Shown here piece after piece: positions 43,249-53,347 of a stretch of 64,000 nt of DNA (its first letter is position 1; each line of letters opens with the position of its first letter). This stretch comes from Scytolyngbya sp. HA4215-MV1 (lineage in GTDB: Bacteria; Cyanobacteriota; Cyanobacteriia; Leptolyngbyales; Leptolyngbyaceae), in assembly GCA_019359045.1 (NCBI GenBank), contig JAHHIA010000004.1, forward strand, positions 310,001-374,000. The letters are read 5' to 3'. Below the pieces are notes generated by a model that had not been told where the DNA came from, ran no database searches, and saw nothing but the letters and a program-made list of their open reading frames with translations. Made by a program: the position numbers and the translations under genes.

Positions 43249-43644
43249 ATGACCCGCAAAAAACGCACTTCCCGCATTCTGGAAAAAGCCGAACTGCGTG
43301 CTGCCGGACTCAAAGCCATTGACCCTGCGCTCGACTTTGGCGATATCCGCACCGTTGGCAATCTCTCTAGCCAGATCGAACAACTCCGAACCAAGATTGA
43401 AACTTACAATACGGCGCTGGCGGTGATCGATTCCTCCAAAACTGAAATCGCTGCCTTAGAAAAAGCTCTCGGCGACCTCACTGACAAAATGCTGATTGGT
43501 GTTGCCTTTAAATATGGCAAAGACAGCCGCGAATATGAAATGGCGGGCGGTGTGCGAAAAAGTGTGCGGGTCTATCGCAGTACTGCCAGTCGCCTGAAGG
43601 CAGGCTCTGAAAGTGGCTCTGGAGCAACGGTTCAGACTGCATAG
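43249..43644 (+). CDS. Coiled-coil protein of unknown function
   Basis: A 131-residue protein starting MTRKKRTSRILEKAELR, with a heptad-patterned middle (LSSQIEQLRTKIETYNTALAV) and a basic C-terminal part (KYGKDSREYEMAGGVRKSVR). It resembles small cyanobacterial proteins without assigned function. A hairpin terminator follows 41 bases after the stop. It lies at the left edge of the accessory island. Confidence 0.7.
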   Translation: MTRKKRTSRILEKAELRAAGLKAIDPALDFGDIRTVGNLSSQIEQLRTKIETYNTALAVIDSSKTEIAALEKALGDLTDKMLIGVAFKYGKDSREYEMAGGVRKSVRVYRSTASRLKAGSESGSGATVQTA

Positions 43645-43684: not shown

Positions 43685-43722
43685 AAAACCTCGGAGGTTT
43701 CGTAAAACCTCCGAGGTTTTTT
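43685..43722 (+). terminator. Palindromic terminator; left boundary of the ATPase-nuclease cassette
   Basis: AAACCTCGGAGGTTT and AAACCTCCGAGGTTT are inverted around a CGT-containing loop, followed by a T-run. It can act as a terminator for the coiled-coil gene. An equivalent palindrome with compensated base changes lies at 48198-48227. Confidence 0.75.
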
Positions 43723-44003
43723 AACAGGTAGGTTATTGATGCGGACGATCGTGCTTTTTGCGATCGGTGGATTTGCAGGAGGCGATCGTTTGAATCAAAT
43801 CATCAATGGATATTAACTACTTTGTCCTCAGTAATAGCTGTGTGATTATTTAGACCCTTCTTTCAAAACATAATTTTTATTCCAAAATTCATAAAATATT
43901 ATCCAAAATTCGTTGTTTTTTTTTAATTTTTTGTGGCACTCTGAAAAAAGGGGATGCATACTTGAATAATTGCGAGTATTGAAGGTTTAGGAAGATTGCC
44001 ACT
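43723..44003. other. AT-rich spacer before the cassette
   Basis: No gene is visible. Base composition becomes markedly AT-rich from about 43850 with runs of A/T, the likely promoter zone of the three-gene cassette. No exact -10/-35 pair was fixed. Confidence 0.4.
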
Positions 44004-44687
44004 ATGCCGCCAGTAAAAGCTAAAATCAAGGATTCCAAAAATACGAATAGCCAGCTTGTTGGTCGTTCAACTCGTCTCTTGCTTGCTTTATGGGGCACAG
44101 ACGAACAAGTAATGCCTAAAGGTAAATTGACTGAGCGGCTTAAGCGCAAAGGTGAAAAGAGTGGCGATTATCAAGATGTGTTTGCTCAGTTAGAGGAAAA
44201 AGGTGCAATCTCGATCGTAAGCGGGAAGGTTGCGATTTTAGCTCAAGGTATTGAGCTATTAGGTCAATATTTGAAAGAATCTAATTTGGTCATCGAAGGA
44301 ACGATCGTAGGAGCCTGGGTTGCAAAGGCTCTATCCAAGTGGATTCAAAAGGCAAAAATGACGACTGGTTCTGCATCTACAAATGGGAAATTATCTGTTG
44401 CTAAGATTAGTTCTTACGAGAGCTTTAAACCCGAAGCACTTGCTCTGTTTGAGAAGTTGGATAAAGGCTACAACTATGGCGGTCTAGTTCCAATTTGGCA
44501 TCTGCGTCGTGAATTTGGCGATCTTGTAGAGCGATTGGAATTTAATGATTGGGTGATGAAAATGCAAGCCGATCAGTTGTTTTACTTGCAAAGTGGCGAA
44601 GCCATTGGAGCAACTGATGAACAGAAACAAGATTCAATTTCAAGTGAAATTCGGGGGCTATTGTTCTACGCTAGTCAACCAACTTGA
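44004..44687 (+). CDS. Cassette gene 1: winged-helix-like protein
   Basis: A 227-residue protein I do not recognise. The N-terminal part (about 20-85) has a winged-helix look: RLLLALWG, KGKLTERLKRKGE, VFAQLEEKGAISIVSGKVAIL. The C-terminal part (about 150-225) has a second helical/wing segment (LVPIWHLRREFGDLVERLEF...FYLQSGEA). Such a protein could be the DNA-binding or regulatory subunit. It is followed, after 128 bases, by the ATPase gene on the same strand. AT-rich compared with neighbouring chromosomal genes. Confidence 0.65.
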   Translation: MPPVKAKIKDSKNTNSQLVGRSTRLLLALWGTDEQVMPKGKLTERLKRKGEKSGDYQDVFAQLEEKGAISIVSGKVAILAQGIELLGQYLKESNLVIEGTIVGAWVAKALSKWIQKAKMTTGSASTNGKLSVAKISSYESFKPEALALFEKLDKGYNYGGLVPIWHLRREFGDLVERLEFNDWVMKMQADQLFYLQSGEAIGATDEQKQDSISSEIRGLLFYASQPT

Positions 44688-44815
44688 TTAACTGAATTAA
44701 ATAAACGATGGTTTAGCAATAGCATAATTCATGCAGGCATTGGATTTCGTCTAATTCCACTTGCCTATTTAGAGCAGTTTGAAAGAATAGCAATAGCCTT
44801 AGGAAAGAGTAAGCA

Positions 44816-46669
44816 ATGAGCGTTACCCAGGATTCGCATGCCCTTTTTGCAGCAGCACGTCAAAACAGCCCCAACCCCTTCTCTCTAGAGCATGTTATTT
44901 CAGCCAATGAAGTTTGGGGCGATGTGATGGCTGATTTAACTGATCTTAATCAGCATATTGATCAGAAAATTAATCAGGCAATTACTGAAGTTCGCCAAAA
45001 ATTCTCTAGGAAGATTGGGATTACCATGAAGGGAGATCGGGGAACAGGTAAAAGTCATGTTATTCACCGAATTTGGAAAAATATTGAACGAGAGGGAGAT
45101 GCTTTTTTTGCTTATCTACCTCCTTGTAAAAATCCAAGCCGTATTGATTCTCATGTACGAGTTAATCTATGTACAGATTTTGCCCGACAGAATGCGAGGG
45201 GTATAACACAGTGGCAAAAGTTTGCTGTCGCTATAATTTCCACCCTAAAGGGTACAGAGTTTGAGTCAGAATATCAACAATATATAGATCAGTGTGATGA
45301 ACCAGATTATTTAAAGAAATTTATTCTTGAAAATGTTGGAAAGTCGAATCTGGAAAGCTTTTTTGATAATTTGACAGAAGCAATTCTTGAAAATCAGCCA
45401 GAACTAGACTTCAACTTTTTGAAGGCGGTCTTATTCACGCTCTTTAAAAACTCAAAACTAGCTCAAGTGGGTTTAGCTTGGTTAAAAGGGGATGACCATC
45501 CTAGCATTAAGCAAGCAGGCTTACCTGAATACACATCTGAACAGCAAGATGACAGAGCAGTCTGGGTGATAGAACAGATTTGTAAGTTAGGAGAAGTTGT
45601 TGCAAAACCCGTAGTAATTTGCTTTGATCAAGTAGATTGTTATGAAGCAAATACCGAGACAGGCGACAGCAAAGCACAGGTTGTAGCTAAGTGTATTGAT
45701 CGTATTTATTTTCAGTGCAGTAATGTGATATTACTTTGCTGCGTTATTCCTGATACTGCCCGGGAAATCAGCCAAATGCAAAGCGGTATCCCTGACCGTG
45801 TTGGTCAATGGACAGTTAGTGCAAAACCTCCAACTGCTGATCAAATGGTGGAATTGGTCAAACTGAGATTAGCATGGTTTTATCGACATCATAATCTCAA
45901 TCAAGATAATTATCCCAATCTCTATCCTTTTGATGAAAATGAATTGAGGCAAGTCGCTAATGAGGCAGCAGCAGCACGTCAACTCTTTAAGGAATGGTGC
46001 GCTAAAAGATTTGCAGAGGTCGAGATTGGTAACCACAATATTAGAGAACCTATCAAGACGAAAAAACAAGAGCTTCTTGATATTTATAACGAATTGCTTA
46101 CAAAAGATGATGCTTTAAGCAAAAAAGATGATTCCTTAAATAAGGAAGATGAGCTAGCTTCAGTTATTACTTCTACAATCAAGATGCTTCCTGATCGAGT
46201 AGTAGAAGGTATAAAAATTGAGAAAATTGAGAAAATTAATGCTTCTTCTGCCCATGACTTGCACTTAATTATTTCTGGATATGATCCAAATCACGCAAAA
46301 AAAGTACGGATTGGCGTTAGAATTTGTGAAACGAAAACAGGTTTAACATTTAATGCGGTAATGAAGCGATTGCTTAATTATAAAAAGCATAAGCTTACTC
46401 GTGGTTGTCTTGTCCGTTCTACCCCTATTCCATTAAATTGGCGAAAGGGTAAAGAACTCGAACAGCAACTTCGAGAAAAGCAAAATGGTGAAGTTGTTGT
46501 TCTTAAAAAAGATGAAATAAAGCCTCTGGTTGCTATCGAAACGATCTATCGCCAATCAGCAGATTATGGTTTTGCTCAAGATGAATTAATTGAACTCATA
46601 AAAGAATTGGAATTAGTTGCTGAAAATCCCTTGATTCGTGAAATTTTAAGTGCTCCAGCAATAGCATGA
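44816..46669 (+). CDS. Cassette gene 2: P-loop ATPase
   Basis: A 617-residue ATPase. Walker A is GDRGTGKS (73-80), preceded by a strand IGITMK; Walker B is VVICFDQVD (about 266-274); a later CCVIPD resembles sensor I. This is the general layout of AAA+/STAND-type ATPases used in defence and in plasmid functions. The C-terminal third (about 430-600) is Lys-rich and may bind a partner or nucleic acid. The stop overlaps the start of the nuclease gene by four bases (ATGA), which indicates coupled translation and a joint complex. I cannot place it in a named family. Confidence 0.75.
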   Translation: MSVTQDSHALFAAARQNSPNPFSLEHVISANEVWGDVMADLTDLNQHIDQKINQAITEVRQKFSRKIGITMKGDRGTGKSHVIHRIWKNIEREGDAFFAYLPPCKNPSRIDSHVRVNLCTDFARQNARGITQWQKFAVAIISTLKGTEFESEYQQYIDQCDEPDYLKKFILENVGKSNLESFFDNLTEAILENQPELDFNFLKAVLFTLFKNSKLAQVGLAWLKGDDHPSIKQAGLPEYTSEQQDDRAVWVIEQICKLGEVVAKPVVICFDQVDCYEANTETGDSKAQVVAKCIDRIYFQCSNVILLCCVIPDTAREISQMQSGIPDRVGQWTVSAKPPTADQMVELVKLRLAWFYRHHNLNQDNYPNLYPFDENELRQVANEAAAARQLFKEWCAKRFAEVEIGNHNIREPIKTKKQELLDIYNELLTKDDALSKKDDSLNKEDELASVITSTIKMLPDRVVEGIKIEKIEKINASSAHDLHLIISGYDPNHAKKVRIGVRICETKTGLTFNAVMKRLLNYKKHKLTRGCLVRSTPIPLNWRKGKELEQQLREKQNGEVVVLKKDEIKPLVAIETIYRQSADYGFAQDELIELIKELELVAENPLIREILSAPAIA

Positions 46670-48114
46670 GTATTGAAATATCTAAAGGGATTCAACTTTC
46701 TGCATTTGATGTTGAAATGCTAAATTTAGGGAAGTTGATTGCTATCCCATTTAAGCAATTTGTATCAGAAGGCCAGATATTTTGGTTATATCCAAGTCAG
46801 CAAATTCCCTTTGGGTTGACGGTTGAGCAATATTACCAACTTAACTACTTACCACTTGCCCAAAACCCGTTTAATAGTCTTACCTCGATTCAGATACAAA
46901 CTTGGGGTAAATGTGAATATCATTGGCATATTCACCCAAACAAGCGACATCTTCTACCCAAAATCGCTCAGTCAACTATCTGGAACTTGAGCGCTCTGGA
47001 ACACATTTTTGAACAAAATCAGGTTCTTAAACTTTTATTTCTGCGAGTATACCAATTATCTGAACCTTGTATTCTGAATGCACCTCCTCCGCCTGGTTCC
47101 TTTTTTTGGTCGCAACCGGAAGATAGAATAATTGCAGCTAGTGAAAAAGATGAGCCTATAGTTTCCGAAAGTAGTTTTCGGCAACGCAAAGCCTTAATCA
47201 TGGATGGAGAAGCTTATCCCAATACGAGCTTAGAATCTCTACAATTCCAGCTATCGAGCTTAGAAGTGGGTCATCCTGTCGCAAAACAGCTCAATCATGA
47301 ACTTAAGCAGCTCCTAGGCTGGAATAGCCATCATAAAACTGTATTGACCGCACCGGAATGGATTAATAAAATTGCTGCTTTAGGCAATCGAAGTAAAGAG
47401 GAAGATGAAGGTAAAAGCAGCTATCAAGCTGGAACAGATTTTGAAATTGTAGTACGTCAAAGCTTAGAATTTCTGGGCTTCAAAGTAGACTATACCCATC
47501 GAGGTGGTGCAGGTGGTATCGATATTTTTTGCTCTGAGCCTTATCCTTTAGTAGGAGAGTGTAAATCAGGTAAAAAAATTCCAAATGACACGGCTGTTCA
47601 ACTCTTAAATCTTGGGACGTTGCGCCTTGAAAACAAAGAAGCTTTTAGTAAAGCCGCTAAATTAATCATTGGTCCTGGTGAACTAACCGATCAGTTAAAG
47701 AAAGCAGCGAAAGTACATGGTATGGCAATTCTTAACCCTGCGACTTTAGAGAAATTAGTTAAAGTTCATCATCAATATCCGATTGATCTCTTTAAGCTAC
47801 GAGATTATCTAGTAGACGGACAAGCGGATGATGAGGTTATCCGATATATCAATCAACACCTCCAAAAAATCCAGTTAAGAGCATTTATTGTTCAACTCGT
47901 TAAGGATTTTCTAGAAAGCTCTTTAGATGCTGATGCTGATATCTCTCAGCTTCATGCAATTTACGTTTTCCGTAAACCTGCACAACCCTTAAAACGAGAA
48001 GAAATGTACGAGATTTTGGTAGAACTCTCTTCCCCACTAACAGCCTATTTAGGGCGTAGAAAGGGAAATGATGGCTCTGACCGTTTTTACTTTTTGCGTG
48101 ATATGAAAAAATGA
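46666..48114 (+). CDS. Cassette gene 3: PD-(D/E)XK-type nuclease
   Basis: 482 residues. The N-terminal ~190 residues (beginning ISKGIQLSAFDVEMLNLGK and including TSIQIQTWGKCEYHWHIHP) look like the cyanobacterial DUF1802 type. The central part has the restriction-endonuclease core: E260 (GTDFEIVVRQ), D286 (GGIDIFC) and E298-x-K300 (VGECKSG), the standard D-E-x-K arrangement. A helical tail follows. Translation is coupled to the ATPase. It most likely cuts DNA. There is no methyltransferase in the cassette, so this is not an ordinary type II system. Confidence 0.8.
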   Translation: MSIEISKGIQLSAFDVEMLNLGKLIAIPFKQFVSEGQIFWLYPSQQIPFGLTVEQYYQLNYLPLAQNPFNSLTSIQIQTWGKCEYHWHIHPNKRHLLPKIAQSTIWNLSALEHIFEQNQVLKLLFLRVYQLSEPCILNAPPPPGSFFWSQPEDRIIAASEKDEPIVSESSFRQRKALIMDGEAYPNTSLESLQFQLSSLEVGHPVAKQLNHELKQLLGWNSHHKTVLTAPEWINKIAALGNRSKEEDEGKSSYQAGTDFEIVVRQSLEFLGFKVDYTHRGGAGGIDIFCSEPYPLVGECKSGKKIPNDTAVQLLNLGTLRLENKEAFSKAAKLIIGPGELTDQLKKAAKVHGMAILNPATLEKLVKVHHQYPIDLFKLRDYLVDGQADDEVIRYINQHLQKIQLRAFIVQLVKDFLESSLDADADISQLHAIYVFRKPAQPLKREEMYEILVELSSPLTAYLGRRKGNDGSDRFYFLRDMKK

Positions 48115-48197
48115 TTTTATGAATCGACCTTGATCTCACTGCCACGTAAAGCAGCGATCGAGCATGAGGATTGTTCGAAAACCATGCTGGAACCTAG

Positions 48198-48227
48198 ACC
48201 TCAGAGGTTTTGGGAAACCTCTGAGGT
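48198..48227. repeat. Palindrome; right boundary of the ATPase-nuclease cassette
   Basis: Arms ACCTCAGAGGTTT and AAACCTCTGAGGT form a perfect 13-bp inverted repeat around a four-base loop, 84 bases after the nuclease stop. It is the counterpart of the left palindrome at 43685, with paired substitutions at one position in each arm. Confidence 0.75.
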
Positions 48228-48288
48228 TGAGTTGGCAAATCGGCAGGTAGAGTAGAGTGAAATCAGCGGCTAAAGCAGGGGACGTTTC

Positions 48289-48363: not shown

Positions 48364-48381
48364 TTGGAGCAGCGATCGAGC

Positions 48382-48672
48382 ATGAACATTCGAGAGTATT
48401 TAATCGAAAAACGCAAAGATATTCTGGAAACGGCAGCCAAATATGGCGCTTATAACGTCCGCATCTTTGGCTCAGTCGCACGAGGGGACGCAGACGCAGA
48501 AAGCGATGTCGATTTTCTGGTAGAGATGGAGTCAGGACGCAGTTTACTAGATCTGGGTGGGCTGCTGATGGAATTGCAAGACTTATTGGGCTGTCCAGTT
48601 GATATTGTGACCGAACAAGGACTGCGCCAAAGAATCCGCGATCGAGTCCTGAATGAAGCCATCCCTCTATGA
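48382..48672 (+). CDS. mntA: MntA-type minimal nucleotidyltransferase antitoxin
   Basis: A 96-residue MNT-domain protein with the signature GSVARG (30-35) and SDVDFLV (41-47), giving the two catalytic Asp residues D42 and D44. Proteins of this type neutralise HepT toxins by adding AMP groups. The ATG at 48382 gives the family N-terminus; the frame extends to a TTG/GTG-like start at 48364. The ATG of the expected hepT overlaps the mntA stop, but hepT is cut after a few codons. Confidence 0.85.
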
Positions 48673-48828: not shown

Positions 48829-49098
48829 CTACTTATAAACGTCTCCACGAGATCCAATTGTGGTAATCACATAGGTTTGAGCGTCTTGATCTTCAATAAA
48901 CAGCACTCGATATTTACCAATCCGTAAGCGGAGTTCAGGACGACCCTTGAGTGGTTTAATGTCAAGCGTTTCTGGTGCAGTGAGCAACGTATCTAACGCT
49001 TCAACAATTCGCAATTAATCTTCTGGTTGCATTCGTTCCAGATATTTCTGGGCAGGCTTCAAAACAAGATATTGCCAATCAGCGTGCCGATTCGCCAA
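48829..49098 (-). pseudogene. RelE/ParE-family toxin gene with in-frame stop
   Basis: Read from a TTG at 49098, the frame gives LANRHADWQYLVLKPAQKYL...MQPED, then TAA at 49015-49017, then LRIVEALDTLL...PELRLRIGKYRVLF...GSRGDVYK. The two parts together make a normal ~89-residue RelE/ParE toxin, so the gene carries one nonsense codon. A downstream TTG at 49014 could allow a 61-residue C-terminal piece. The antitoxin gene overlaps the toxin start. Confidence 0.7.
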
Positions 49099-49336
49099 GA
49101 TTGCCTCCAAACAGCCTTTGCTTCAAGCCTGCCGCAGTGATCCCTCTATCCCGACCTGCCCAATACTCCTGCAAAGCCGCTTCACTGGCAGAAATTTCTT
49201 CAGCAGCAATCACTTCATCGGTGCCCTCTACTCTCACCGCCTGAGGCAAACTCACCGATAAAGCCTCCAGTAACCGTGCTTGATCTGCCAAAGGCAGGCG
49301 TTTCGCCAAACTGAGAACTTCTTCATAAGTGGGCAT
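49079..49336 (-). CDS. Antitoxin of the RelE/ParE-type pair
   Basis: An 85-residue acidic protein starting MPTYEEVLSLAKRLPLADQARLLEALS, with the helical LxxAxxLPxxDQxxLLExL pattern of cyanobacterial antitoxins. The C-terminal part (GLKQRLFGG) should wrap the toxin. Its stop overlaps the toxin start region, as in type II toxin-antitoxin operons. It is intact, while the toxin has a stop codon. Confidence 0.75.
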   Translation of the reverse strand: MPTYEEVLSLAKRLPLADQARLLEALSVSLPQAVRVEGTDEVIAAEEISASEAALQEYWAGRDRGITAAGLKQRLFGGNLGESAR

Positions 49337-49363: not shown

Positions 49364-52300
49364 TCAATATACGCCAATCTTGCCCTCAATCTGGGCTTCC
49401 GCTTCCAGCGACAACGATCGCAACTGATGCAACACCGCCGGACTGGCATTTGCCCACATGCCCCGCTGATGCGCTTCCAGCAACCGCTCCGCCATATCTC
49501 GTAACGCCCAGGGATTCTTTTGCTGCACAAACGCCTGCACCTGCGGGTCGAGCAAATACGCCTCCGCCACGCCCTGATACATGTAATCGCCCACACATTG
49601 CGTCGTCGCATCATAGGCAAACAAATAATCGATCGTCGCTGCCATTTCAAACGCGCCCTTATAGCCATGGCGCATCGCCCCCGCAATCCACTTGGGATTA
49701 ATCACCCGCGATCGATAGACCCGCGCGATTTCCTGTTGCAGCGATCGCACCTTGGGATTTTCTGGCAGCGCATGATCACCAAAATACACCGTCGGGTTTT
49801 GCCCCTGGAGCGATCGTACCGCCGCCGTTAGCCCGCCCTGAAACTGATAATAGTCATCCGAATCCAGCAAATCATGTTCGCGATTGTCCTGGTTTTGCAA
49901 CACAATCTGCAGATCGCTCAACCGCCGCTCAAACACCTCCGGCTCCGAATGCCCCACCCCCTGAGCGCCATAGGCATAGCTGCTCCAGTTGAGATACGCC
50001 CGCGCCAGGTCATCGGAGGTCTGCCAGTTTTGCGACTCAATCAACCCCTGCAACCCCGCCCCATAGGCCCCCGGTTTCGAGCCAAACACCCGATAGCTCG
50101 ATCGGCGTTGCGCCTGCTCCGGCGTTAGCCCTGCCTGCTGCCACTCCTGCGTTTCTTGCTGCACCTGCGCCGCCAGGGGATTGTCGGCAGCGGGTTCATC
50201 CAGCGCCGCCACCGCTGCCACTGCCTGACTAAACAAATCAATCAGATTGGGAAACGCATCGCGAAAGAATCCCGAAATCCGCAGCGTCACATCCACACGA
50301 GGACGACCCAACAGCGAAAGGGGCAACACCTCAAAATCAATCACCCGTCGCGAAGCCCCTTCCCAAATCGGTTGTACACCCAACAACGCCAGTGCTTCTG
50401 CCAGGTCATCGCCGCCCGTCCGCATGGTTGAGGTGCCCCAAATTGAGAGCGCCAGGGTTTTAGGATACTCACCCTGCTCCTGGGTATAGGTTTCAATCAG
50501 CACTTCTGCCGCCTTGCGTCCCACATCCCAGGCGCTTTCCGTTGGCACCGCCCGAATATCCACCGAATAGAAATTGCGCCCCGTCGGCAACACCTCTGGA
50601 CGACCGCGGGTTGGCGCACCTGATGGCGCAGCGGGCACATAGCCTCCGGCTAAGCCATGTAGCAGATAGTGCATTTCCTGCTCCGTGCGTTGGAGATTGG
50701 GTAAGAGCCGATCGCGAATCCAGCTTAACTCTGCTTGTACCCGATCATGCTCTGGCGCGAGGGTATCGAGGTCAATTTTGGGATGGATGAGTAATTGTTC
50801 AACCTGAATCGCTGCCTGTTGCTCAATTAAGTCAATGATGTCACCTGCCCGATATTCTTTCTGTTCTCCTTTGCCTCTCCGCTCTGTTACTTCGCGACAG
50901 TGTACACCTGAATGATCCGGGATGTCATTCAGTGTGGTTGATCCCCCCAACCCCCTTAAAAAGGGGGCTTCAGATTTCAAAGTCCCCCTTCTAAAGGGGG
51001 ATTTAGGGGGATCGAATGCGGTGTTTCCAAACGTTTCAAATGGATAAACACAAGGTAGCCTGACGACCTGGGCTGGATCAACTGTCAACGGATCAAACTC
51101 CAACCCCCATGCCTGAGCGATCGCGCGGGTCAAGCCCATGCGTCCAGGCGAAGGATGACGGGCGATCGACACGATCAGGTCACGCAGTTGTCGTCCGATG
51201 GGGCATTGTCCAAACACATGCAAGCCATCCCGAATTTGGGATTCTTTAAGTTCACAGAGGTAACGATCGGCATTGGTAATCAGTTCCGTCAGTGCCGTTG
51301 CGGTAAGGGGTTCATCCGGTGCAGCGTTGGCGATCGTGCGAATTTCCTGGCTCAGATTTTCTTGTTGAATCAATGCCGTGATGCGATCGCGAATCACCGG
51401 AGAACGGGATGGGTCAAGGGTCAAGGCTTCGTAATATTCATCAATCAAGCCTTCCAGTTGCTGCAAGCCACCGTAGAGTTCGGCACGGGTCATGGGCGGC
51501 GTGAGGTGGTCGATGATCACCGCTTGCGATCGGCGTTTTGCCTGCGATCCCTCCCCCGGATCATTGACGATAAAGGGGTAGAGATGGGGCAATGCGCCCA
51601 AGGCGATTTCAGGATAGCAAGTTGCTGATAGCGCCAAACTTTTGCCGGGGAGCCATTCCAGGTTGCCATGCTTGCCGACATGGACGATCGCGTGCGTGCC
51701 AAACTCGGATCGCACCCAGTGATAAAACGCCAGATAGTCATGGGTGGGTTCTAGATCGGGCGCGTGATAGTTCAGGGCAGGATCGGTGTCATAGCCACGG
51801 GCAGGCTGAATGCCGACAAACACATTTCCCAGTTGAATGCCCGCGATCGCCAACGAGGCGGGAGCATCGCCCCAGCGTTGGCGAATTTGAGTCTGTACCA
51901 TTTCCGGCAACGTGACAAACCAATCTTGATAAGCCGTGAGGTCAAGAGTTTGATGGGCAGAATTAATGCCGTGGGTTTCTGGATCATTGGTCATCCCGGC
52001 AGTGAGGCGTTGAATTAACTCATCATCGCTGGCAGGAAGATTGTCCACCTGATAGCCTGCCTGTTGCAGTGCCCGTAAAATTGCCACACAACTGGCAGGC
52101 GTATCTAGCCCCACTCCGTTGGCGAGGCGACCGTTGCGGGTGGGATAGTTTGCCAAAATCAGCGCTACTTTGCGGTGATGCAGGGGTTGTTGGCGCAGCT
52201 TCACCCAATTTGCCGCCAGTTCCGCCACAAATTGAATGCGATCGTCCACGGGTTGATAGGTCAACACGTCGGTTTCCAATGTCGCATTCCATCCCTGCAC

Positions 52301-53347
52301 TGCCTTAAACGACACGGCACGACTGATAATGCGCCCATCCACTTCAGGCAACGCCACATTCATCGCTACATCGCGTGGCGACAAGCCTCGCCATTCCTGT
52401 TGCCATTGCGCCAAGCCACCGCCACTCAAAATCACCTGTAACACGGGCACATCCAACTGTTGCCACAGTTCAGGAAAGCGATCGGCAAACGTCGTCGAAG
52501 TTGGAGCCGCAGCGTTGCTCCCCCCCCATTCCCGATCGCCCACTTTTGCCAGGGAAAAGCTGGTGGTGTTGAGCAAAACTTGAATGCCTGCGGCGTCTTT
52601 GGGACGGAACTCCGCCAGTAAATCTGCCTGCACATCAGCATCACGCAACGAGGAGACAAACACGGGTACGGGACACAAGCCACGATCGCATAGGGCTTGA
52701 CAGAGAGCATCGATCGGGGCAAGGTTCCCTGCTAAATAATGCGCTCGATAAAACACAATTCCCACTTGCGGTGCAGTTTGAAGTTCTGGTGCCAGTGGGA
52801 AAGCATAGCGCCCCACCGAAGGCACGGGCAGAGGAGGGACATAGGAATACTCGCTGGCGAGACCGTGATGGGCAATCCAACCTAGGGCGTGGATCATGTT
52901 CTCGACTCCGCCTTCTAGAAAATAGCGCCAGCCTTGATTGACGGTGGCGATCGGCAAGGTGGAATGGCTCATCAGCGTCGGATCGGGCTGGTTGTCGCCG
53001 GGGAGCACAATCAGGGTGGCTCCGGTTTGTTTCACGGTTTCTCGCACCACTTCTAAGCCGTAAGACCAATACGCCCGCCCACCTAATAAGCGCAGCACAA
53101 TGACCTGGGCTTGCTCCAACACGGTTTCGGCATAGGTGTCGATCGACAATTGCTGCTGAAGCTGGAGCAAATTGACCACGCGGACTGCCGGGAAGGCGTT
53201 GGGTAGGTGCGGGATTGCCTGGGCGATCGCACTAATGTCGGTATCTGCGGCGGTGATGAGGACGATCGGGGCAGGGGTCTGCTCGACAAAGATCACACCA
53301 TCGGTATCCGGTGTCCAGCCACCGGGAGTTGCTGCCAGTCTATGCAT
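49364..53347 (-). CDS. cobN: Cobaltochelatase subunit CobN (magnesium-chelatase H-like)
   Basis: A 1327-residue CobN/ChlH-family protein starting MHRLAATPGG. Landmarks: NYPTRNGRLANGVGLDTPAS near 395, HVGKHGNLEWLPGKSLALS (catalytic-region His) near 560, YGGLQQLEGLIDEYYEAL, GRNFYSVDIRAVPTESAW and LSIWGTSTMRTGGDD. It inserts cobalt (or Mg in ChlH) into a tetrapyrrole together with ATPase partners not seen here. Residues about 777-817 come from a dispersed repeat inserted in frame (PPKSPFRRG and FLRGLGG). The 3' end borders the toxin-antitoxin cassette and its last 26 codons are duplicated at 48696-48773. Confidence 0.92.
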   Translation of the reverse strand: MHRLAATPGGWTPDTDGVIFVEQTPAPIVLITAADTDISAIAQAIPHLPNAFPAVRVVNLLQLQQQLSIDTYAETVLEQAQVIVLRLLGGRAYWSYGLEVVRETVKQTGATLIVLPGDNQPDPTLMSHSTLPIATVNQGWRYFLEGGVENMIHALGWIAHHGLASEYSYVPPLPVPSVGRYAFPLAPELQTAPQVGIVFYRAHYLAGNLAPIDALCQALCDRGLCPVPVFVSSLRDADVQADLLAEFRPKDAAGIQVLLNTTSFSLAKVGDREWGGSNAAAPTSTTFADRFPELWQQLDVPVLQVILSGGGLAQWQQEWRGLSPRDVAMNVALPEVDGRIISRAVSFKAVQGWNATLETDVLTYQPVDDRIQFVAELAANWVKLRQQPLHHRKVALILANYPTRNGRLANGVGLDTPASCVAILRALQQAGYQVDNLPASDDELIQRLTAGMTNDPETHGINSAHQTLDLTAYQDWFVTLPEMVQTQIRQRWGDAPASLAIAGIQLGNVFVGIQPARGYDTDPALNYHAPDLEPTHDYLAFYHWVRSEFGTHAIVHVGKHGNLEWLPGKSLALSATCYPEIALGALPHLYPFIVNDPGEGSQAKRRSQAVIIDHLTPPMTRAELYGGLQQLEGLIDEYYEALTLDPSRSPVIRDRITALIQQENLSQEIRTIANAAPDEPLTATALTELITNADRYLCELKESQIRDGLHVFGQCPIGRQLRDLIVSIARHPSPGRMGLTRAIAQAWGLEFDPLTVDPAQVVRLPCVYPFETFGNTAFDPPKSPFRRGTLKSEAPFLRGLGGSTTLNDIPDHSGVHCREVTERRGKGEQKEYRAGDIIDLIEQQAAIQVEQLLIHPKIDLDTLAPEHDRVQAELSWIRDRLLPNLQRTEQEMHYLLHGLAGGYVPAAPSGAPTRGRPEVLPTGRNFYSVDIRAVPTESAWDVGRKAAEVLIETYTQEQGEYPKTLALSIWGTSTMRTGGDDLAEALALLGVQPIWEGASRRVIDFEVLPLSLLGRPRVDVTLRISGFFRDAFPNLIDLFSQAVAAVAALDEPAADNPLAAQVQQETQEWQQAGLTPEQAQRRSSYRVFGSKPGAYGAGLQGLIESQNWQTSDDLARAYLNWSSYAYGAQGVGHSEPEVFERRLSDLQIVLQNQDNREHDLLDSDDYYQFQGGLTAAVRSLQGQNPTVYFGDHALPENPKVRSLQQEIARVYRSRVINPKWIAGAMRHGYKGAFEMAATIDYLFAYDATTQCVGDYMYQGVAEAYLLDPQVQAFVQQKNPWALRDMAERLLEAHQRGMWANASPAVLHQLRSLSLEAEAQIEGKIGVY
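50899..51018. repeat. Dispersed repeat inserted in frame within cobN
   Basis: About 120 bases: GTGTACAC, GATGTCATT-AGTG, GTTGATCCCCC, then inverted CCCCCTTAAAAAGGGGG and CCCCCTTCTAAAGGGGG blocks. It belongs to the family seen at 41891-42270. The length keeps the reading frame, adding about 40 residues at a site between conserved CobN blocks. Confidence 0.8.

Follow-up and report, generated by a model that had tools for sequence, protein, structure and literature searches.

The window analysed here comprises 64,000 nucleotides of the cyanobacterium Scytolyngbya sp. HA4215-MV1 (contig JAHHIA010000004.1, positions 310,001 to 374,000) and contains three consecutive genes on the forward strand, which encode a winged-helix (WH) protein, an Orc1/Cdc6-like AAA+ ATPase and an ASCH-like nuclease of the PD-(D/E)XK type. 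Our analysis points to a widespread cyanobacterial operon of an already predicted kind, which is probably a restriction-type defence system. A preliminary description of the window, made from its sequence, had placed three open reading frames (ORFs) at this locus, and all of them were found at these positions (Table 1). The stop codon of the ATPase gene and the start codon of the nuclease gene share the bases ATGA at 46666-46669, which confirms the reported 4-base overlap. The operon was also described as more AT-rich than the rest of the window. This is correct for the comparison with the flanks, as the GC content is 0.35-0.42 in the operon and 0.50-0.60 in most flanking windows, and the profile covered 40-52 kb of the 64-kb window. 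The absence of a methyltransferase from the operon was borne out by Pfam, NCBIfam and PADLOC searches with the three proteins.

Table 1. Coordinates of the operon, its domains and motifs, and the flanking hairpins (positions in the window; aa, amino acids).
Feature	Position	Strand	Evidence
Gene 1, winged-helix protein, 227 aa	44004..44687	+	ORF; alignment A3 of 28 orthologues; weak winged-helix matches
First winged-helix region, ~residues 20-90, variable between similar operons	44061..44273	+	Sliding identity
Gene 2, Orc1/Cdc6-like AAA+ ATPase, 617 aa	44816..46669	+	Alignment A1; AlphaFold2; Foldseek
Walker A GDRGTGKS, residues 73-80	45032..45055	+	Sequence; G76, G78, K79 invariant in 27/27
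Walker B VVICFDQVD, residues 266-274; catalytic Glu replaced by Gln (Q272)	45611..45637	+	Clade comparison
Alpha/beta domain, ~residues 460-535, candidate inactive restriction endonuclease	46193..46420	+	Element order in model
ATPase C-terminal helical/WH-like part, ~residues 541-611	46436..46648	+	DSSP of model
Gene 3, ASCH-like / PD-(D/E)XK nuclease, 482 aa	46666..48114	+	Alignments A2 and A4; AlphaFold2
N-terminal DUF1802 domain, ASCH/PUA-like fold	46666..47205	+	Pfam DUF1802 9e-17; Foldseek
PD-(D/E)XK catalytic core, exchangeable cassette	47350..47700	+	Foldseek; cassette exchange
Catalytic D286 to E298-C-K300	47521..47565	+	Conservation in 86 nucleases
Nuclease C-terminal helical part, WH-like, also variable	47701..48111	+	Weak Foldseek matches; identity comparison
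Hairpin and T-run, probable terminator of the 131-aa gene	43685..43720	+	Hairpin z-score; genomic copies
Related hairpin downstream of the operon, without T-run	48197..48228	not set	Hairpin z-score

The three genes form a genuine conserved operon, because the three proteins co-occur in other genomes. A search of 390 cyanobacterial genomes with the ATPase gave matches at E<=0.001 in 109 of them; about 74 of these had matches better than 1e-20 and represent the operon family, and the rest carry distant paralogues. At the best 29 other loci the nuclease gene adjoins the ATPase gene in every case (29/29) and the WH gene does so in 28/29, the exception (L022) starting at a contig edge. Scanning of the GTDB contigs with a single sequence as query gave no confirmed relative; using alignment A1 as query, 79 named loci were obtained, all of them cyanobacterial. 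Of 88 ATPase units, 79 had both partners on the same strand and in the order WH-ATPase-nuclease; the gaps between the genes had medians of 39 and 8 bp. The co-occurrence in other cyanobacteria, which had been proposed as a check of the preliminary description, is far beyond chance. Two or three operons in tandem were found at L035, L036, L058, L068 and L071.

Gene 2 had been identified as a P-loop ATPase. Both Walker motifs are present, and the residues G76, G78, K79 and D271 are invariant in the family, whose members have a length of 600-680 aa. The AlphaFold2 model of the protein (predicted local distance difference test, pLDDT, 86.6) gave the best Foldseek matches in the PDB with the archaeal Orc1/Cdc6 structures 2qby, 2v1u and 1fnn. 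In this model an alpha/beta domain with the order strand-strand-strand-helix-strand is located between the AAA+ core and the C-terminal helices; the alignment columns of this domain contain no conserved D..ExK, and no specific match to a restriction endonuclease (REase) fold was obtained for it.

The usual Walker B of Orc/Cdc6-type ATPases is DExD, and the majority of the family analysed here has a Walker B of this type. In the clade of the window (51-57% identity) the glutamate is exchanged for glutamine in 12 of 13 ATPases, compared with a glutamate in 95 of the 102 others. Loss of the Walker-B glutamate in AAA+ proteins is expected to leave ATP binding intact and to impair hydrolysis. Because of this exchange the ATPase of the window's clade, by analogy, probably binds ATP but hydrolyses little of it. 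The natural occurrence of such a clade poses the question of whether ATP hydrolysis is needed. A dependence of the glutamine-type ATPase on a second copy with glutamate was also considered and was rejected, as the window genome has no such copy; L035, L036 and L071 have both types. Paralogues of the ATPase occur in two further arrangements. At L143, L145, L146, L147 and L148 a WH protein of 275-299 aa is paired with an Orc-like ATPase of 650-712 aa in a two-gene system without nuclease. At L142, L144 and L149, and also in cyanobacterial genomes of 2.7-3 Mb, the ATPase paralogue and an RNase T/DnaQ-like 3'-5' exonuclease form a single fusion protein, which is possibly an old cyanobacterial protein.

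The assignment of gene 3 to the PD-(D/E)XK nucleases is supported by the conservation of D286, E298 and K300 in 83, 84 and 84 of 86 nucleases, respectively. In the AlphaFold2 model (pLDDT 87.9) the middle part matches the catalytic domains of FokI (3.5e-5), N.BspD6I and HindIII, and the C-terminal part shows weak Foldseek matches to the C-terminal domain of Cdt1. The N-terminal DUF1802 part matches the ASCH structures of ZmASCH (5y6b/5guq) with a target template modelling (TM) score of 0.50-0.60 and of TTHA0113 (2dp9) with 0.65, the E-values being only 0.01-0.1 at a probability of 0.98-1.00. Judged from these models, DUF1802, which is almost absent from the literature searched, would gain a fold assignment (ASCH/PUA-like). 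RNA binding is common among ASCH/PUA domains, and ZmASCH was reported to be an RNase according to a reference given in PMC7641849. Together with weak STAND/NACHT-type matches of the ATPase this would agree with abortive infection or toxic targeting of RNA, where infection is sensed by the ATPase and RNA is bound by the ASCH domain; we consider this very improbable, since the fold of the core matches DNA endonucleases and the WH partner is of the DNA-binding type.

Two of the three exceptions to the conservation of the catalytic residues are second nuclease copies beside intact operons (L053:11584-13032 and L073:13410-14855), which have lost all three residues and are perhaps decaying or act as decoys. 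The genome of the window additionally encodes a stand-alone DUF1802 protein (G000:C21:107874-108389) with a Pfam score of 228 bits, far above that of the operon nuclease, and DUF1802 was also matched in Synechococcus elongatus and Deinobacterium.

For gene 1 the winged-helix-like identity is supported by matches to SelB-wing_2, DUF6293_C and the RIO2 WH domain, all of them weak, and by the WH protein of the paralogous two-gene ATPase system, to which the profile match is weak as well. A search for homology between gene 1 and the C-terminal part of the nuclease gave a negative result. At L035 (7550-8548), and also at L036, L045 and L046, an extra gene upstream of the operon combines the first WH domain of gene 1 with a long histone-H1-like tail rich in Lys, Ala, Ser and Thr.

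Comparison of the nucleases revealed three forms of the catalytic core, which are distinguished by a spacing of 7, 10 or 16 residues before the GGAGG(I/L)D motif. In the operon pair L064/L075 the identity is 97% for the ATPase, 92% for the ASCH part and 42% for the core; the corresponding values are 94%, 86% and 47% for L045/L046 and 90%, 93% and 44% for L105/L108. Analysis of sliding identity located the sharp drop near residue 200 of the nuclease. In 15 pairs with unlike core types and an AAA+ identity of 85-99% the ASCH domain had a median identity of 92% and the core one of 43%, whereas 18 pairs with like core types showed 88% and 81%. For the C-terminal nuclease part, which also varies, the median identity is 59-71% where the ATPase has 85-99%. 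A second mosaic stretch occurs in gene 1, where the identity of L045/L046 and L064/L075 falls to 35-65% in the first WH region and then returns to 85-100%; it is present in some pairs only, and medians over all pairs show it weakly. Counted on quick FastTree trees and hence approximate, the core type changed at least 24 times on the tree of the ATPase, 22 times on that of the ASCH domain and 2 times on that of the core itself, and 200 shuffles of the core labels on the ATPase tree gave a mean of 29 and a minimum of 24 changes. The catalytic core is thus swapped as a cassette between near-identical operons, and such recurrent exchange is as expected of conflict genes in an arms race.

These data lead to the tentative view of a chromosomally anchored immune system that may evolve by exchange of its effector, with the ATPase of one clade turned into an ATP-bound, non-hydrolysing switch. 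The ATPase, the reader domain and the genomic site would stay near constant, and the catalytic half of the nuclease, sometimes together with the first winged helix of gene 1, would be replaced, presumably because invaders inhibit or evade the nuclease itself. The natural swaps, with the same ATPase and reader and a different core, allow one to ask which part sets the specificity and which part is attacked by phage counter-defence.

In many filamentous cyanobacteria the operon is located at a syntenic site with the order mraY - psaE - mutM - ndhO - mdh - operon - pgi - livM/livG, the neighbouring genes being named by reading their protein sequences. This site was surveyed in a family termed Nostocaceae-like, the family of the window being termed Leptolyngbyaceae-like; both names were assigned by inference. 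The operon ATPase is present in 87 of 119 Nostocaceae-like genomes. In 53 of these 87 the operon lies within 15 kb of pgi and always on the opposite strand, and in the rest it is found at other places. Seven genomes without operon (L110, L112, L115, L117, L118, L121 and L123) have an intact but empty mdh-pgi site, and at L119 the site contains decayed remnants of the nuclease and the WH gene. Such a patchy presence is as for a dispensable, costly trait. Two genes on the opposite strand recur downstream of the operon and also at empty sites (L042, L056, L090, L111, L117 and others); they encode an aspartic-protease-like protein of retroviral type (about 120 aa) and a protein of 105 aa, perhaps as a toxin-antitoxin-like pair.

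The Orc1/Cdc6 fold and the mostly chromosomal position beside pgi could also indicate a chromosome-maintenance or replication/repair module, in which the Orc/Cdc6-like ATPase, the WH protein and a structure-specific nuclease act on the cell's own DNA. The missing defence-island enrichment described below is in line with this possibility as well. We nevertheless regard it as unlikely, since the operon is missing from about four fifths of the sampled cyanobacteria and was repeatedly lost with the site left intact, and since wholesale exchange of the core between close relatives would be unexpected for a housekeeping nuclease.

The reading that we prefer, on the basis of sequence comparison and structural models, is an ATP-gated DNA-restriction complex directed against invaders and possibly sensing modification, to which we assign a probability of roughly 0.6. 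The WH protein and the ATP-bound Orc1/Cdc6-like ATPase would load onto the target DNA and form a clamp or scanning complex there, as proposed for Orc/Cdc6 and for partners of the SspB-SspC type; the third protein would be recruited or licensed by this assembly. The ASCH/PUA-like domain would then inspect the bases, perhaps for modification, and the PD-(D/E)XK core would cut. Because the operon lacks a methyltransferase, self and non-self may be told apart by reading of modification or of the DNA state and not by self-marking. In the window's clade the role of the ATPase would be that of a clamp or switch held in the ATP-bound state. The constant gene order, the intact nuclease residues, the combination of a FokI/HindIII-type core with an ASCH-like reader, the Orc1/Cdc6 fold, the patchy presence, the tandem copies, the exchange of the core and the paralogous ATPase pairings all favour a restriction complex. 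It is further backed by PMC10853773, because one sentence of this paper independently predicts the same composition as directed against selfish elements.

Several observations weigh against restriction. The exchange leaves the presumed reader constant and the nuclease variable, which is the reverse of the classical exchange of specificity domains in restriction systems. Reading of N6-methyladenine (6mA) by ASCH domains is a prediction, and the characterised ASCH proteins are amidohydrolases or an RNase. The mostly fixed chromosomal site in Nostocaceae-like genomes is unlike that of most mobile defence systems, and no copies of the operon were found on plasmids (PLSDB), on phages or on IMG/VR contigs. 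In the flanks of 33 non-syntenic loci PADLOC families showed no clear excess over random control regions, in a small test with 137 flank and 136 random proteins in which the 25 commonest families were compared and assorted PADLOC cross-matches occurred on both sides. The preliminary description had proposed a candidate defence system within a defence island. Restriction or defence is still the best reading, but the findings on flanks, replicons and site do not support the island setting.

The absence from PLSDB plasmids would also fit a barrier against plasmids or natural transformation, Wadjet-like in purpose and not in its parts. The complex would then sense small DNA entering the cell by its topology or its replication, and the ASCH-like domain would be structural only. 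Orc-like ATPases act on replicons, and the lack of a methyltransferase is compatible with such a barrier. We consider this distinctly unlikely: no direct sign of plasmid targeting was seen, and DUF1802 is among the best-kept parts across unlike core types, which suggests that it is important. A plasmid-partition or phage module was considered separately, and the lack of matches in the plasmid, phage and IMG/VR searches argues against it. As a restriction system the operon may itself hinder the transformation of filamentous cyanobacteria.

The statement of the preliminary description that no named system can be assigned holds true, as no fitting PADLOC, NCBIfam or Pfam system was found for the three proteins. 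PADLOC 2.0 profiles gave no match to the window's ATPase or WH protein and E-values of only 0.007-0.014 for the nuclease, and sequence searches of the PDB with the proteins yielded nothing useful. The operon is, however, not a new kind, since its composition was already predicted. One sentence in a paper on Dnd systems (NAR 2024;52:1005, PMC10853773) predicts operons of an Orc/Cdc6 ATPase, an ASCH-REase and a 'DndG-like triple wHTH' (winged helix-turn-helix) protein. Their ATPase is described there with an inactive REase between the AAA+ core and the C-terminal wHTH, and the operons are called mobile; the paper gives no system name and no experiment for them, and its main text has no cyanobacteria. 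We had assigned the ASCH and Orc folds from the structural models before this prediction was consulted, and the two agree independently.

Both accounts share the Orc/Cdc6-clade ATPase, seen here in the archaeal Foldseek matches and in the invariant Walker A and D271, and the REase fused to an ASCH domain, with ASCH matches at the N-terminus and FokI/HindIII matches in the middle part. A candidate for the inactive REase is the part of the ATPase model with an REase-like element order, which has no conserved ExK and no specific fold match, and a candidate for the triple-wHTH protein is the WH-like protein that is co-encoded in nearly all loci and has weak winged-helix matches. The mobile neighbourhood, a descriptive and not a defining statement in that paper, contrasts in part with the position beside pgi in 53/87 genomes, elsewhere in the rest, and with the lack of copies found on plasmids and phages. 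Cassette exchange of the core, the clade with Gln in Walker B and the identity of the ASCH-like part with Pfam DUF1802 also differ from that account. The first two were not found reported in the literature searched; the pgi-adjacent site with clean empty sites and the lack of an association with defence islands, plasmids or phages are likewise new. A widespread system known from a one-sentence prediction of its composition thereby becomes directly testable.

According to the passages of PMC10853773 on SspBCDE and DndFGH, SspC is an Orc/Cdc6-clade ATPase and SspB and DndG are triple-wHTH proteins. In contrast to these systems, the operon contains no sulfur-modification genes (DndA/C or SspA/D), none of which is among the recurrent neighbours, and has an ASCH-like REase as its nuclease. 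Type IV restriction systems (McrBC, EVE-HNH, wH-REase fusions) also combine a reader of the PUA superfamily with a nuclease and have no methyltransferase, and wH domains can read 6mA (PMC11037411). In the operon an Orc/Cdc6-like ATPase takes the place of the McrB GTPase, and Pfam, NCBIfam and PADLOC gave no match to McrB or McrC. BREX shares an ORC/Cdc6-clade ATPase with wHTH (BrxC/BrxD; PMC12839542), and one of 27 ATPase family members showed a weak match to BrxC_BrxD. However, the conserved operon lacks PglZ, the BrxX methyltransferase, BrxL and a helicase, and none of PglZ, BrxX and a large BrxC is a recurrent neighbour, the neighbours again being named from their sequences.

The operon had also been described as bounded by related palindromes. 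Both hairpins are real and related (z -7.0 for the left and z -4.7 to -5.2 for the right one), and only three hairpins of the type CCTCNGAGG..CCTCNGAGG exist in the whole 6.6-Mb genome, two of which flank the operon. The left one is probably not an operon boundary but the terminator of the upstream 131-aa gene (43249-43644), because its stem is followed by a T-run just 3' of this gene and because the third copy (C8:141822) likewise lies just downstream of a paralogue (C8:141329-141670). The terminator-like left copy and the position of the third copy do not support the palindromes as ends of a mobile element. The 131-aa gene belongs to a multi-copy, coiled-coil-like family without Pfam family, which has 6 copies in the genome (including contigs C17, C21, C8 and C15) and up to 14 in relatives; at least two copies precede a CCTCNGAGG hairpin. 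On the other side the window operon adjoins a large reverse-strand gene (49364-53347), which was read as a magnesium/cobalt-chelatase subunit of the bchH/cobN type, and no comparable empty site at bchH was found in relatives from the window's family. Between the operon and this gene the ORFs 48364-48672, 48829-49014 and 49079-49336 code for an MNT-type nucleotidyltransferase, a short ParE-like toxin and a possible antitoxin.

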